Positions 14,143-22,639 of a stretch of DNA of 64,000 nucleotides are shown here, piece after piece. A program made the position numbers and the translations under genes. Position 1 is the stretch's first letter. The number at the start of each line of letters is the position of its first letter. The notes below the pieces were generated by a model. It was not told the origin of the DNA, ran no database searches, and saw only the letters and a list, made by a program, of their open reading frames with translations. Origin of the DNA: Nocardiopsis endophytica (lineage in GTDB: Bacteria; Actinomycetota; Actinomycetes; Streptosporangiales; Streptosporangiaceae); the NCBI RefSeq assembly GCF_027706725.1, contig NZ_JAQFWQ010000030.1, forward strand, positions 1 to 64,000, in the 5' to 3' direction.

Positions 14143-15030
14143 TCAGGCCAGCGACGCGACCTCGGGGGCGGTGAACCCGTGCGGCGGCAGGTCGGCGCCG
14201 TCCAGGGCGCGGGCGACCTCCCCGGGGCCGGTCCAGCCGCCGGGGGAGCGCAGCACCGGCCCCAGCTCGGGCGGCTTGAGCACCCCGATGACGCCGCCGT
14301 GCACGACGAAGACCTGGCCGGTGACGTGGGCGGCGGCGGGCGAGGCGAGGTAGGCGACGAGGGGGGAGACGCGCTCGGGCGCCAGCGGGTCGGGGCCGTC
14401 CTGCGGGGGCGGGCCGAACACGCCGGCGGTCATGGCGGTGCGGGCGCGGGGGCAGATGGCGTTGGCGGTGGCGCCGTAGCGGCGCAGGGCCTGGGCGGTG
14501 GCGGTGGTCAGGGCGGCGATGCCGCCCTTGGCGGCGGCGTAGTTGGGCTGGCCGGGGGAGCCGAGGAGGAACGCCTCGGAGGCGGTGTTGACGACGCGGC
14601 CGTGCACGGGGCCGCCCGCGCGCTTGGACCGGGCGCGCCAGTGCGCGGCGGCGGCGCGGGAGGCGAGGAAGTGGCCGCGCAGGTGGGTGCGGACGACGGC
14701 GTCCCAGTCGGCCTCGTCCATGTTGAACAGCATCCGGTCGCGGACCACCCCGGCGTTGTTGACGAGCACGTCCAGGCGCCCGTAGTGCTCCTCGGCGGCG
14801 GCCAGCAGGCGCTCCCCGGCGCCGTCGGCGGCGGCGTCGCCCCCGACGGCGCGGGCGGTGCCGCCGCGGGCGCGGATCTCGGCGGCGGTCTCCTCGGCGC
14901 CGTGCAGGTCGGCGACGACGAGGCGGGCGCCGCCCTCGGCGAGGGCCAGGGCGTGGGCCCGGCCGAGGCCGCGCCCGGCGCCGGTGACGGCTGCGGCGAG
15001 GCCGTCCAGGCGCACGTTCGGGTCATCCAT
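14143..15030 (-). CDS. short-chain dehydrogenase, Hsd4A-like, steroid side-chain locus
   Basis: 295 aa. Classical SDR: Rossmann motif TGAGRGLG near residue 16, NNAG at 91-94, catalytic S151, Y164 and K168 (YxxxK). The long segment from RDRM through GHFLASR, HWRARSK and the late CPRARTAM resembles mycobacterial Hsd4A-type hydroxyacyl-CoA dehydrogenases rather than FabG. By position and similarity it may oxidise a beta-hydroxyacyl-CoA of the steroid side chain. Its start overlaps the end of the upstream MBL gene by 8 bases, and it is the last gene of the operon. Confidence 0.8.
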   Translation of the reverse strand: MDDPNVRLDGLAAAVTGAGRGLGRAHALALAEGGARLVVADLHGAEETAAEIRARGGTARAVGGDAAADGAGERLLAAAEEHYGRLDVLVNNAGVVRDRMLFNMDEADWDAVVRTHLRGHFLASRAAAAHWRARSKRAGGPVHGRVVNTASEAFLLGSPGQPNYAAAKGGIAALTTATAQALRRYGATANAICPRARTAMTAGVFGPPPQDGPDPLAPERVSPLVAYLASPAAAHVTGQVFVVHGGVIGVLKPPELGPVLRSPGGWTGPGEVARALDGADLPPHGFTAPEVASLA

Positions 15031-16063
15031 GGGCTCTCCTCCAGGTCAGGACCTCGGGCGGTGGGCCGGTCCGCACGGCGAGGCCGCGGCGCTCCAGCAC
15101 CCGCAGGTGCGCGGCGGTCTCGGAGGCGGCGAGGCGGCGCTGGACGACGCCCATCGCCTCCCAGCCGCGGCTCCAGGGCAGCGCGGCGCACAGCTCCCAC
15201 AGGGTGGCGGGGCCGTGGTGCAGGGCGGTGGCGAGCAGGTCGAGGCGTTCGGTGTGGTGGTCGGCGATGGCGGCGGCGCGCTCGGCCAGACCGGTGAAGC
15301 GGGCCTCGTGGGCGGGCAGCGCCTCGGTGTCGGCGGGCGCGGTGTCGCCGATGTGGGCGAGGGAGTCGAGGAAGGCGCCGAGCGGGTCGCGGTCGTCGGG
15401 CCGCCCGTCGGGCAGGGTGAAGGGGTACAGGCCGATGTGGGGGGTGATGCGGGGCAGCACGTGGTCGCCGGTGAACAGGCGGTCGGCGTCCTCCAGGTGG
15501 AGGCAGATGTGGCCGGGGGAGTGGCCGGGGGTCCATACGGTGCGCAGCTTGCGGCCGGGCACGTCGACGAGTTCGCCGTGGGCCAGCTCGGTGTCGGGGG
15601 CGGCGGGCGGGTCGAGCCGCGGGTCGGTGCGGGCGTAGGCGGCGACCTCGTCCTCGGTGGCCCCGGCGGCGCGCAGCTGGGCGGTCTCCAGGCCGGTCCC
15701 GGCTCCGACGCCGGCCTCGGCGATGAACCGGAGCATCCCGGCGTCGGCGTGGTGCATGGCGATCCAGCAGCCGGAGGCGGCGCGCACCCGCCCGGCCAGC
15801 CCGGCGTGGTCGGGGTGGAAGTGGGTGACGACGACGCCGTGCACGCCGGCGGGGTCGGACCCGGCGGCGCGCAGCCCGTCGGCCAGCGCGGCCCAGGAGT
15901 CCTCGTGCTCCCATCCGGCGTCGACGAGGACGGGGCCGCGGGGGGTCTCCAGGGCGTAGACGAGGGTGTAGCCGAGCGGGTTGCCGGGGATCGGCACGGG
16001 GATGGACCAGACCCCGCCGCCGAGGTCCTCGACGGGCGGCAGCTCGCGGGGGAGGGGGCGCAT
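15023..16063 (-). CDS. MBL-fold metallo-hydrolase with C-terminal winged helix
   Basis: 346 aa. The metallo-beta-lactamase-fold metal motif THFHPDH is at 80-86 (H81, H83, D85, H86), followed by GHSPGH and TGDHVL further on. The last roughly 100 residues resemble the winged-helix tail of LACTB2-like hydrolases. It sits between ltp2 and the SDR gene, co-oriented and overlapping the latter, so a hydrolytic step or thioester/lactone clean-up in steroid catabolism is plausible but unproven. A perfect 16-bp palindrome lies 16-31 bases before its ATG, so it may also have its own regulated promoter. Confidence 0.8.
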   Translation of the reverse strand: MRPLPRELPPVEDLGGGVWSIPVPIPGNPLGYTLVYALETPRGPVLVDAGWEHEDSWAALADGLRAAGSDPAGVHGVVVTHFHPDHAGLAGRVRAASGCWIAMHHADAGMLRFIAEAGVGAGTGLETAQLRAAGATEDEVAAYARTDPRLDPPAAPDTELAHGELVDVPGRKLRTVWTPGHSPGHICLHLEDADRLFTGDHVLPRITPHIGLYPFTLPDGRPDDRDPLGAFLDSLAHIGDTAPADTEALPAHEARFTGLAERAAAIADHHTERLDLLATALHHGPATLWELCAALPWSRGWEAMGVVQRRLAASETAAHLRVLERRGLAVRTGPPPEVLTWRRAHG

Positions 16064-16078
16064 GCGTCGCCTTTCGTC

Positions 16079-16094
16079 GAACCGAATTCGGTTC
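16079..16094. promoter_or_regulatory. perfect palindrome, candidate operator before the MBL gene
   Basis: The 16 bases gaaccgaattcggttc form a perfect palindrome with no spacer, overlapping the last base of the ltp2 stop codon region and ending 16 bases before the MBL start. It looks like a TetR-family operator. It shares the outer gaac/gttc bases with the KstR-type sites upstream but has a different spacing. Confidence 0.5.
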
Positions 16095-20892: not shown

Positions 20893-21504
20893 GTGGCGGT
20901 TCAGGCGCCGGTAGGGATGCGGTCGCGGAGTCAGAACCAGCGCCGCAGGCGCATCGTGCAGACGGCCGCCGCGCTGGCCCTGCGGGGCGGCGTGGAGGCG
21001 ATGCAGATGCGCACCGTGGCCGAGCGGGCCGGGGTGGCGCTGGGCACGCTGTACCGCTACTTCCCCTCCAAGATGGACCTGGTGGTGGCGGTGGTCACCG
21101 AGGAGCTGGACCTGCTGGAGTCCAGCATCGAGCGGCGGCCCCCGGCGGCGCCGACCGCGGCGGGGCGGGCGGTGGACGTGCTGATGCGCGCCACCCGCGG
21201 GCTCATGCGCGAGCCGGAGCTGGCCGACGCGCTGGTGCGCTCGCTGATCATGGCCGAGGTCAAGACCGAGCTGGGCCAGCGCATCACCGACCTGCTGTGG
21301 CGGGTGGCGGGGGACGGGGGCCGGGACGGGGACGCCGGCGAGCCCGACCGGGACGCCCCCGCCTACGTGCTGGCCGGGTCGCTGGCCAGCGTGTGGATCT
21401 TCGAACTGCTGGAGGTCCTCAAGGGCCACCGGGACGTGGAACAGGTCCACGAACGGCTCACCGTGACCGCCGAACGGCTGCTGCCGGGCCTTTCCGAGGA
21501 GTAG
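20893..21504 (+). CDS. TetR-family regulator, KstR-like
   Basis: 203 aa. The N-terminal helix-turn-helix contains [20 protein letters not shown] followed by RYFPSK, nearly the same as the DNA-binding helix of mycobacterial KstR, the repressor of cholesterol catabolism whose ligand is a steroid CoA thioester. The remaining residues are the variable ligand-binding domain. GTG 20893 is preferred because ggaggggaa precedes it; the frame is open to a GTG at 20851. The gene lies between the divergent chs operon and fadA5, and KstR-type sites stand before all three units. In M. tuberculosis kstR itself lies elsewhere, so this placement is a local variant. Confidence 0.78.
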
Positions 21505-21515
21505 AACACGTTATA
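21502..21515. promoter_or_regulatory. KstR-type operator overlapping the fadA5 promoter
   Basis: The 14 bases tagaacacgttata match the KstR consensus TnnAACnnGTTnnA exactly. It overlaps a tatagt -10 box (21512-21517) and starts inside the stop codon of the TetR gene. Confidence 0.7.
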
Positions 21516-21526
21516 GTCTCGCGGTC

Positions 21527-22639
21527 ATGGCCGAGCCCGTGATCGTGGAAGCCGTCCGTACTCCGATCGCCCGGCGGCGCGGCGCGCTCGCCGGGACCAA
21601 GCCGGTCGAGCTGCTCGGCCGCGTCCAGCGCGCCGTGCTGGAGCGGGCCGGGGCCGACCCCGCCGAGGTGGACCAGGTCTTCGCCGGGTGCGTCACCCAG
21701 GCCGGGGAGCAGGGCAACCACGTGGGCCGGCACGCCTGGCTGTACGCGGGGCTGCCCTGGCAGACGGGGGCGACCACGCTGGACGCCCAGTGCGCCTCCA
21801 GCCAGCAGGCGGTGCACCTGGCCGCGGCGATGATCGCCTGCGGCGCGGTGCGCACCGCCGTGGCCTGCGGCGTGGAGGTGATGAGCCGGGTCCCGCTGGG
21901 CCGGGCGGTCCACCCCGACGACCCCCGCCCCGCCGACTGGGACGTGGACCTGCCCGACCAGTTCACCGCCGCCGAGCGGATCGCCGCCCGGCGCGGCCTG
22001 AGGCGCGCGGACCTGGACGCCTGGGGCGTGCGCTCGCAGGCCCGGGCCGCCCGCGCCTGGGCCGAGGGGCGGTTCGACCGCGAGGTGGTGCCGGTGCCGG
22101 GCCTGGACACCGATGAGGGCCTGCGGGAGACGACCCCCGAGGGGCTGGCGGCGCTGCGCCCGGTGGGCGAGGGCGCCCTGCACACCGCCGGGACCAGCTC
22201 GCAGATCTCCGACGGCGCCGCCGCCGTCCTGCTGGCCTCGGCCGGCCGGGCGCGCGAGCTGGGGCTGCGCCCGCGGGCGCGGCTGCGCGCGCACGCCCTG
22301 GTGGGCGCCGAGCCGCACTTCCACCTGGACGGGCCGGTGCGGGCCACCGGGAAGGTGCTCGGCGACGCCGGGATGACCCCGGCCGACCTGGACGTGGCCG
22401 AGGTGAACGAGGCCTTCGCCGCGGTGGTGCTGTCCTGGGTGCAGGTGCACGGGGCCGACACCGGCCGGGTCAACCCCAACGGGGGCGCGATCGCGCTCGG
22501 CCACCCGGTGGGGGCGAGCGGCGCCCGGCTGGTGGCCACCGCCCTGCACGAGCTGGAGCGCCGGGACGGTGCGACGGCGCTGGTCACCATGTGCGCGGGC
22601 GGGGCGCTGGCGTCCGGGGCGGTGCTGGAGCGCGTCTAG
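21527..22639 (+). CDS. fadA5: FadA5-like steroid 3-ketoacyl-CoA thiolase
   Basis: 370 aa. Thiolase with nucleophile C89 in [13 protein letters not shown]326 in GHPVGASG and C356 in MCAGGA. The blocks [54 protein letters not shown] and [13 protein letters not shown] follow M. tuberculosis FadA5, which thiolyses the cholesterol side chain during beta-oxidation. In M. tuberculosis fadA5 is also divergent from the igr operon. There is no Shine-Dalgarno; a tatagt box ends 9 bases before the ATG, so the mRNA is probably leaderless, with an exact KstR-type site covering the promoter. The gene converges on the sigma-like gene with a gap of only 9 bases. Confidence 0.87.

Follow-up and report, generated by a model that had tools for sequence, protein, structure and literature searches.

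Gene content of the side-chain locus

The 64,000-nucleotide stretch analysed here (the window) comes from Nocardiopsis endophytica (contig NZ_JAQFWQ010000030.1; draft assembly of 7.26 Mb in 211 contigs, completeness 98.94%) and carries, at positions 14143-22639, a locus related to the mycobacterial igr/fadA5 genes for steroid side-chain degradation. Six genes form an operon on the minus strand, running from 20687 to 14143 in the order beta-type ChsE, alpha-type ChsE, ChsH, Ltp2, metallo-beta-lactamase-fold (MBL) hydrolase and short-chain dehydrogenase/reductase (SDR), with three gaps of 10, 22 and 30 bases and two overlapping gene pairs. A TetR regulator gene and fadA5 lie divergently on the plus strand. 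Protein identities were assigned by searches of PDB, NCBIfam and Pfam, and two operators of the KstR type accompany the genes:

14143..15030, minus strand: Hsd4A-like SDR, predicted beta-hydroxyacyl-CoA/17-hydroxysteroid dehydrogenase (Pfam adh_short; YAAAK at residue 164)
15023..16063, minus strand: metallo-beta-lactamase-fold hydrolase (Pfam Lactamase_B; 8-base overlap with the SDR gene)
16094..17254, minus strand: Ltp2 retro-aldolase, 386 amino acids (PDB 6ok1_A, Lipid-transfer protein, E=8e-157; NCBIfam PRK07855, 623 against a cut-off of 469)
17251..18510, minus strand: ChsH2::ChsH1 fusion hydratase, 419 amino acids (MaoC, zinc ribbon/DUF35, MaoC, by PDB domain matches)
18521..19690, minus strand: alpha-type ChsE acyl-CoA dehydrogenase, FadE29/FadE26-like (4x28_A, which we take to be FadE26, E=2e-99; Tcur3483, 6wy8_B, E=1e-92)
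19713..20687, minus strand: beta-type ChsE acyl-CoA dehydrogenase, FadE28-like (Tcur3481, 6wy8_A, E=1e-28)
20706..20719, no strand: KstR-type operator TAGAACGGATTCTA in the operon promoter, the genome's only exact match of the search pattern TAGAAYNNRTTCTA
20851..21504, plus strand: KstR-like TetR repressor (3mnl_A, E=3e-27; KstR 5cw8, E=4e-26; start uncertain, GTG at 20851)
21502..21515, no strand: KstR-type operator TAGAACACGTTATA before fadA5, one mismatch to TAGAAYNNRTTCTA, overlapping the TetR stop codon
21527..22639, plus strand: FadA5 steroid 3-ketoacyl-CoA thiolase (PDB FadA5 4ubv, E=7e-135; PRK07850, 564 against a cut-off of 515)

An initial annotation of this DNA had proposed a steroid side-chain locus of the igr/fadA5 type, with the order chsE1-chsE2-chsH-ltp2 and a divergent fadA5. 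Both proposals are borne out: the genes are present, best match the named enzymes and keep their catalytic residues, and the order is the mycobacterial one with chsH2 and chsH1 fused. In Ltp2, Y289 (in YDHF) and Y339 align with the catalytic Tyr294 and Tyr344 of TcLtp2, the C3-type aldolase of Thermomonospora curvata (PMC12329534, in excerpt); with both tyrosines kept, the enzyme is of the C3 type and not of the Sal type. FadA5 keeps C89, H326 and C356. The N-terminal domain of the beta-type ChsE is shortened, without a match to the Pfam model Acyl-CoA_dh_N.

By its domain matches, ChsH is a single head-to-tail protein, ChsH2 followed by ChsH1, a fusion absent from the initial annotation. Residues 8-162 match Mycobacterium tuberculosis ChsH2 (4wnb_A), residues 176-296 the DUF35 domain of ChsH2 (6ok1_B) and residues 299-413 ChsH1 (4wnb_B). 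The ChsH1 part keeps the Asp/His dyad D322/H327 (the catalytic residues according to PMC11321319, in excerpt); in the ChsH2 part, where DUF35 is present, a Tyr aligns where the catalytic His would stand. An AlphaFold2 model of the fused protein, with a mean predicted local distance difference test score of 81, contains both hot-dog parts and the oligonucleotide-binding (OB) part, which Foldseek matches to 4w78/4wnb and 6ok1. Whole-length alignments with double-MaoC proteins were poor (root-mean-square deviation >20), and the fold comparison was used for domains only.

Two genes are appended to the operon. The MBL hydrolase scores 347 with the NCBIfam model Strvi_7410 MBL, under its cut-off of 525, and its homologues adjoin fadA5 in relatives. 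The SDR is 61% identical to the SDR within a ring-degradation cluster (locus L130), in agreement with its earlier description as Hsd4A-like. Between Ltp2 and the MBL gene lies a perfect 16-bp palindrome, GAACCGAATTCGGTTC (16079-16094), which differs from the KstR-type pattern. As to the regulator, its best solved structure is 3mnl_A (listed as TetR-family, with the same aligned residues as the KstR entries), and the next four are KstR or TetR-family proteins, three of them named KstR. Its closest solved homologues support the designation as KstR-like, though the score of 126.5 bits with the NCBIfam KstR model, the best of the library, falls below the equivalog cut-off of 280.

Compared with the mycobacterial igr/fadA5/cyp125 genes of the KstR regulon, the locus shares the gene order (FadA5 divergent from ChsE-beta, ChsE-alpha, ChsH2, ChsH1, Ltp2), the catalytic residues and the operator TAGAACNNGTTCTA. 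It differs in the fusion of ChsH2 with ChsH1, in the TetR gene at the cyp125 position and in the appended MBL and SDR genes; moreover, cyp125 is on another contig, KshA and Mce are missing from the genome, and the KstD and HsaC queries have no convincing match there. Four mycobacterial-like loci (L157, L158, L164, L168) show the same order with a CYP125-like gene at the TetR position. The idea that the KstR-like TetR replaces cyp125 has the position right, but was rejected, as in relatives members of this TetR lineage share a contig with CYP125-like P450s (L186, L190; L184/L185, two parts of one contig). We likewise rejected cyp125 as the identity of the gene that relatives carry between TetR and chsE: where present, that gene resembles an acyl-CoA synthetase.

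CYP125, a FadE34-like gene and a shared operator

The initial annotation had described cyp125 as missing. It is indeed absent from the locus and from the operon head, but it is present elsewhere in the genome, on contig C20. Among 27 P450 matches in the genome, one shares 61% identity with the P450 from a mycobacterial-like igr locus, itself a CYP125 by PDB match (E=2e-268). This protein (L169:14720-15955) matches CYP125 over its whole length (PDB 3ivy, E=3e-165; CYP124, 7e-90; CYP142, 6e-62), and it is found in 6/6 genus genomes (the source genome, L039, L040, L041, L141 and L142) at 78-100% identity.

The second locus extends from L169:14720 to L170:3216. Preceding CYP125 on its strand are a PRK07798 synthetase (664 against a cut-off of 543), a PRK08313 thiolase-like protein (656 against 514) and a PRK07937 lipid-transfer-like protein (364, under the cut-off of 419); we take PRK07798, PRK08313 and PRK07937 to stand for FadD19, Ltp3 and Ltp4. 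Also ahead of CYP125 are a DUF35 protein, its gene split across two stretches examined, another synthetase (FadD) and a divergent EchA19-like hydratase, which scores 356 against 316 with PRK07799 and 342 with the EchA19 model NF051848, under its cut-off of 400. This gene order recurs in the other five genomes of the genus, although a contig end truncates it in one, and in two genomes of the sister genus (L177-L183). Gene calls came from a rough codon-score script, which left the beta ChsE uncalled in L141 and L142 and the P450 uncalled in L183, where a homology search nevertheless places CYP125 at G079:C1:332322. The PRK08313, PRK07937, PRK07798 and PRK07799 family proteins are thus adjacent as in the Ltp3/Ltp4-FadD19-EchA19 set for C24-branched sterols; here, however, they stand beside CYP125, without ring genes recognised nearby, and the PRK07937 and EchA19 scores lie under the curated cut-offs. 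In Mycobacterium, FadD19 and likewise Ltp3/Ltp4 are required for C24-branched sterols, and in Mycobacterium and Rhodococcus such gene sets serve whole and C24-branched sterols (PMC6273163 and PMC6678751, in excerpt).

A third place, on contig C99, encodes a FadE34-like tandem dehydrogenase of 749 amino acids behind C99:1060, 49.6% identical to a 736-residue one in ring cluster L130. In mycobacterial-like loci L159-L161 and L163 the FadE34-like gene is divergent from a KstR-like gene, as fadE34 is from kstR in M. tuberculosis (PMC1995591, in excerpt).

A KstR-type operator, TAGAACNNGTTCTA in its mycobacterial type, precedes the window operon, fadA5 and the FadE34-like gene, and two copies lie ahead of the CYP125 locus. 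The search pattern TAGAAYNNRTTCTA was drawn from window and genus sites, and the published M. tuberculosis KstR palindrome, TAGAAC(N2)GTTCTA with the core TnnAACnnGTTnnA (PMC1995591, in excerpt), was consulted only afterwards. In the 7.26-Mb genome the pattern has one exact place, the operon promoter, and seven one-mismatch places: fadA5, the CYP125 locus promoter, the FadE34-like gene (C99:1060), a PorA/PgfA-type gene (C99:22301), a FadD gene (C107), C62 and C85. Upstream of the TetR start at 20851 there is a AACGTGTT core, yet with more than two mismatches to the operator pattern. Within the three sterol promoters (339 bp in total), three sites at ≤1 mismatch were seen against 0.0004 expected at genome density, which is not an independent test because sites of the window and the genus had shaped the pattern and those on C20 were known beforehand. 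Independent of the pattern's design are the one-mismatch site starting 53 bp before the FadE34-like gene and the agreement with the published motif.

The operator is also conserved. Two operators 55 bp apart precede CYP125 in 5/5 genus genomes with that promoter in view, the second with two mismatches. Across 22 loci scanned (L143 being the genome of L041), 42 of 43 matches at ≤2 mismatches were intergenic by our gene calls or lay no more than 30 bases from a gene end. The interval between TetR and operon was surveyed in 81 loci, nine of which were dropped for want of a called class-A TetR with its neighbour; the remaining 72, window included, have an exact site in 64, one mismatch in 5 and two mismatches in 3, against 0% of shuffled copies at ≤1 mismatch and 0.7% at ≤2. 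Places with two mismatches are too numerous to carry much weight singly; one of them, C15:82103, precedes a gene of the TIGR03559 F420_Rv3520c family (437 against 335); the Rv3520c/Rv3521 interval is among the M. tuberculosis KstR probes (PMC1995591, in excerpt). The proposal that every one-mismatch operator is a true target was dropped, C62 being intragenic and C85 without a gene behind, and sites are claimed only with sterol context.

Taken together, the putative regulon is spread over several places marked by one operator: the window operon with fadA5, the C20 locus and the C99 FadE34-like gene. We infer that the KstR-like TetR of the window represses all four units, namely the operon, fadA5, the CYP125 locus and the FadE34-like gene. 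We consider it likely that these genes form a KstR-type regulon devoted to removing the sterol side chain alone, predicted from sequence to end at 17-ketosteroids. On the best reading, the window locus would make up the final third of a pathway for sterol side chains that runs without known ring degradation, with whole sterols as the inferred substrates and a ketosteroid product that would be released. A 3-oxo-sterol would enter and be oxidised at C26 by CYP125; the FadD19-like synthetase would form the CoA ester, and Ltp3/4-like enzymes would take off C24 branches. FadE34-like, EchA19-like, Hsd4A-like and FadA5 proteins would shorten the side chain to the C22 ester, FadA5 and the Hsd4A-like SDR serving the thiolytic round that precedes the steps from C22 to C19. 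In these, ChsE would desaturate, the fused ChsH hydrate C17, and Ltp2 cleave off propionyl-CoA. The product would be a 17-ketosteroid such as androstenedione, released by a cell that gains only acetyl- and propionyl-CoA.

Ring-degradation genes and competing explanations

Four of the genes named earlier for a genome-wide search (cyp125, kstD, mce4, hsaC) came out divided: CYP125 was found, Mce had no match, and KstD and HsaC had no convincing match. For KshA, PF19298 (KshA_C) has 0 matches in the source genome and in 0/6 genus genomes, one of them in 3 contigs; the same model reaches E<1e-80 in 75 of 297 genomes of the family. The Mce4 importer, sought with PF02470 (MlaD/Mce), has 0 matches in the source genome. 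There the KstD query gave no convincing orthologue, with two short matches within residues 5-76 (the FAD site; best E=4e-5), and the HsaC query nothing above E=8e-4 at 30% identity. As no KshA, KstD or HsaC was found, the established route of ring opening would not operate, and we expect release of the ketosteroid. Mycobacteria engineered or mutated to stop at androstenedione likewise remove the side chain and keep the ring, as predicted here; those strains derive from a complete pathway, whereas here key ring genes seem absent by nature.

Several observations weigh against this interpretation. The search for ring genes covered KshA, KstD and HsaC in a draft assembly and did not extend to HsaA, HsaB, HsaD, KshB, IpdAB, 3beta-HSD or cholesterol oxidase. 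The KstD query matches genus member G002 at E=4e-21 (35% over residues 207-543), and the two-mismatch place C20:79093 adjoins a gene of the nitronate monooxygenase (NMO) fold, presumably that of the ring C/D enzyme IpdC. No Mce importer was found that could serve sterol uptake. The regulator's KstR score is below its cut-off, and at ≤2 mismatches the operator pattern is not enriched genome-wide (86 places; reversed control, 151). Of the one-mismatch sites, that on C62 is intragenic, that on C85 is close to the end of its contig and has no called gene following it, and that on C107 precedes a FadD gene without a clear role.

Further genes touch on these points. The partial KstD-query match in G002 is a FAD oxidoreductase (G002:C2:1264946-1265935; L149). 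On contig C20 (L212:7947-10005), a two-mismatch operator place is surrounded by an NMO-fold gene, 50% identical to one beside the Ltp2 of L167, and a gene of the DprE2 family. A PorA/PgfA-type lipid-trafficking protein (L209:8416-9348, contig C99; NF053601, 319 against 160) lies behind a one-mismatch operator, and a homologue adjoins the KstR-like gene in ring cluster L138; this protein is a candidate, by sequence, for sterol uptake without Mce.

The incomplete ring search and draft assembly, together with the KstD-like match in G002 and the NMO-fold gene at a two-mismatch operator place, leave room for a ring pathway that is divergent or in unassembled DNA, with complete sterol degradation as in Mycobacterium. 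We regard this as unlikely: KshA_C is absent from all six genus genomes despite its strong matches elsewhere in the family, and the surroundings of 12 further operator places (five with one mismatch and seven with two, from the 86 at ≤2) include no recognised KshA, KstD, HsaA or HsaC gene.

The initial annotation had favoured steroids with short side chains over intact cholesterol. That the locus serves steroids whose side chain is already short, such as bile-acid-like compounds or C22 acids, would fit the lack of cyp125 within it, the ability of T. curvata, which has a cholate cluster but lacks a cholesterol pathway, to grow on cholate yet not on cholesterol (PMC4810484, in excerpt), and the reported 7alpha-hydroxylation of deoxycholate by Nocardiopsis and Nonomuraea strains (PMC6153880, in excerpt). 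The genome speaks otherwise, with CYP125 in every genus genome, the same operator on its locus and a gene set of the C24-branch type (FadD19-, EchA19- and Ltp3/4-like genes). The actinobacterial cholate (cas-type) cluster, for example that of T. curvata, has homologous ChsE, ChsH and Ltp2, but the ring-linked clusters that we take as cas-type (L129-L136, L144, L145) show the order fadD-Ea-H2-Eb-H1-Ltp2, one of them without fadD, unlike the window; they carry KstD, HsaA and KshA on the same contig, and their Ltp2 falls in another clade than that of the window. We hold the short-side-chain explanation to be quite improbable.

It is similarly improbable that the gene set acts on a different polycyclic molecule whose tail is steroid-like, such as a hopanoid or triterpenoid. 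The set is widely present in presumably hopanoid-making bacteria, and neither Mce nor a ring pathway was found, yet the closest matches of CYP125, FadA5 and Ltp2 are sterol enzymes, and that of the KstR-type operator is the site of the sterol repressor. A decaying or silent relict of a once complete pathway, to which the shortened beta ChsE and the fadD gene kept beside chsE in G002 and G004 and gone from the source genome, L039, L040 and L041 might point, is very improbable given intact catalytic residues, an Ltp2 tree that follows families, and both loci kept in 6/6 genus genomes, with operators too where promoters are in view.

Distribution in Streptosporangiales

The whole block with its flanks is syntenic in Nocardiopsis suaedae, N. 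chromatogenes and N. halophila, and Ltp2 occurs in 6/6 genus genomes, the source included. Among the best 80 of 147 matches to the fused ChsH in a contig scan (L188 and L189 being 100% matches to L071 and L070), all but five (Gordonia, three Myxococcota and one unplaced metagenome-assembled genome) are Streptosporangiales by title, to which their genera belong. Within the fetched flanks of these 80 we found class-A TetR in 71, fadD in 49, fadA5 in 45 and MBL in 29, and the common core is a TetR gene divergent from an optional fadD followed by ChsE-beta, ChsE-alpha, ChsH and Ltp2. Nocardiopsis, Actinomadura and Actinoallomurus have a single ChsH gene; in Nonomuraea, Streptosporangium and their kin there are two. 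Because ChsH is also a single gene in Gordonia araii (L098), L064 and L067, the fusion is not private to the Nocardiopsis lineage.

In a tree of 53 Ltp2 rows, the 23 class-A rows form one clade (98/93) whose inner order follows families, apart from the ring-linked lineage taken as cas-type, the mycobacterial-like lineage and the ring-linked loci L064 and L138-L140. The side-chain module looks, from these sequences, vertically inherited in Streptosporangiales. Across 297 genomes of the family, Ltp2 (E≤1e-120) is present in 179, its class A or B being read from identity, gene order and tree and not assigned for every one of them; KshA_C exceeds its cut-off in 92. Of those 179, KshA_C reaches E<1e-80 in 72 and not in 107, and 88 lack any match even at 1e-3. 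For co-occurrence, 116 Ltp2 rows were taken, leaving out those of lower identity; at least 33 of the 84 rows from genomes without a KshA match come with a CYP125-like row, at least 22 of these on the same contig within 60 kb. In a sample of the phylum, Ltp2 (E≤1e-100) occurs in 31/396 genomes.

In line with the initial annotation, no second Ltp2 was found in the genome: the next best match, a paralogous Ltp-like thiolase with a DUF35 partner (L172:1291-2999, contig C15), is 46% identical. Elsewhere, four Streptomyces-like loci (genus guessed; L153-L156) have ChsH2-ChsH1-Ltp2 beside FadD, with the ChsE pair uncalled in three of four and no ring gene recognised within the 20 kb examined. Two Myxococcota metagenome-assembled genomes (L093, L111) carry ChsH2, ChsH1 and Ltp2 with an ltp3/ltp4-like, DUF35 and FadD set as in the CYP125 locus, possibly a sterol side-chain cluster in another phylum.

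Other features of the window lie further off. An OpuC-type glycine betaine ATP-binding cassette (ABC) transporter (26423-29824; Pfam OpuAC) keeps its place beside the side-chain operon in about 40 loci, and the neighbourhood is therefore old; a functional link between this osmoprotectant transporter and the locus was set aside, no operator evidence being seen. Genes for electron transfer flavoprotein (ETF) beta and alpha (Pfam ETF), the usual electron acceptor of acyl-CoA dehydrogenases, are at 51050-52805. The window starts with 23S and 5S rRNA (69-3400), and a thiamine pyrophosphate riboswitch (44402-44507) precedes a cobalt-type transporter resembling the energy-coupling factor type.

Accounts of bacterial sterol catabolism usually present a single pathway, side chain then ring, and surveys depend largely on ring genes, KshA among them. 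Judged by titles and the starts of abstracts, the open-licence literature yielded no description of such a side-chain regulon in Nocardiopsis or Streptosporangiales. The main text of PMC4810484, as excerpted and supplementary tables apart, does not mention Nocardiopsis or Actinomadura, and PMC5790920 does not mention Nocardiopsis, Nonomuraea, Actinomadura or Streptosporang-. We propose tentatively, as plausible though not quite probable, that sterol catabolism confined to the side chain and controlled by a KstR-type repressor is ancient in Streptosporangiales and has been passed on vertically, that many members including Nocardiopsis are natural sterol-to-androstane converters, and that ring degradation is a patchy add-on in other Ltp2 lineages. 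If so, KshA-based surveys would miss a large group of soil bacteria, hormone-like androstane products may be released naturally, and these strains would be natural counterparts of the mycobacteria that industry engineers for this conversion. The separation of side-chain removal from ring degradation would be open to direct test, and the fused ChsH2::ChsH1 should ease work on the hydratase-aldolase complex.

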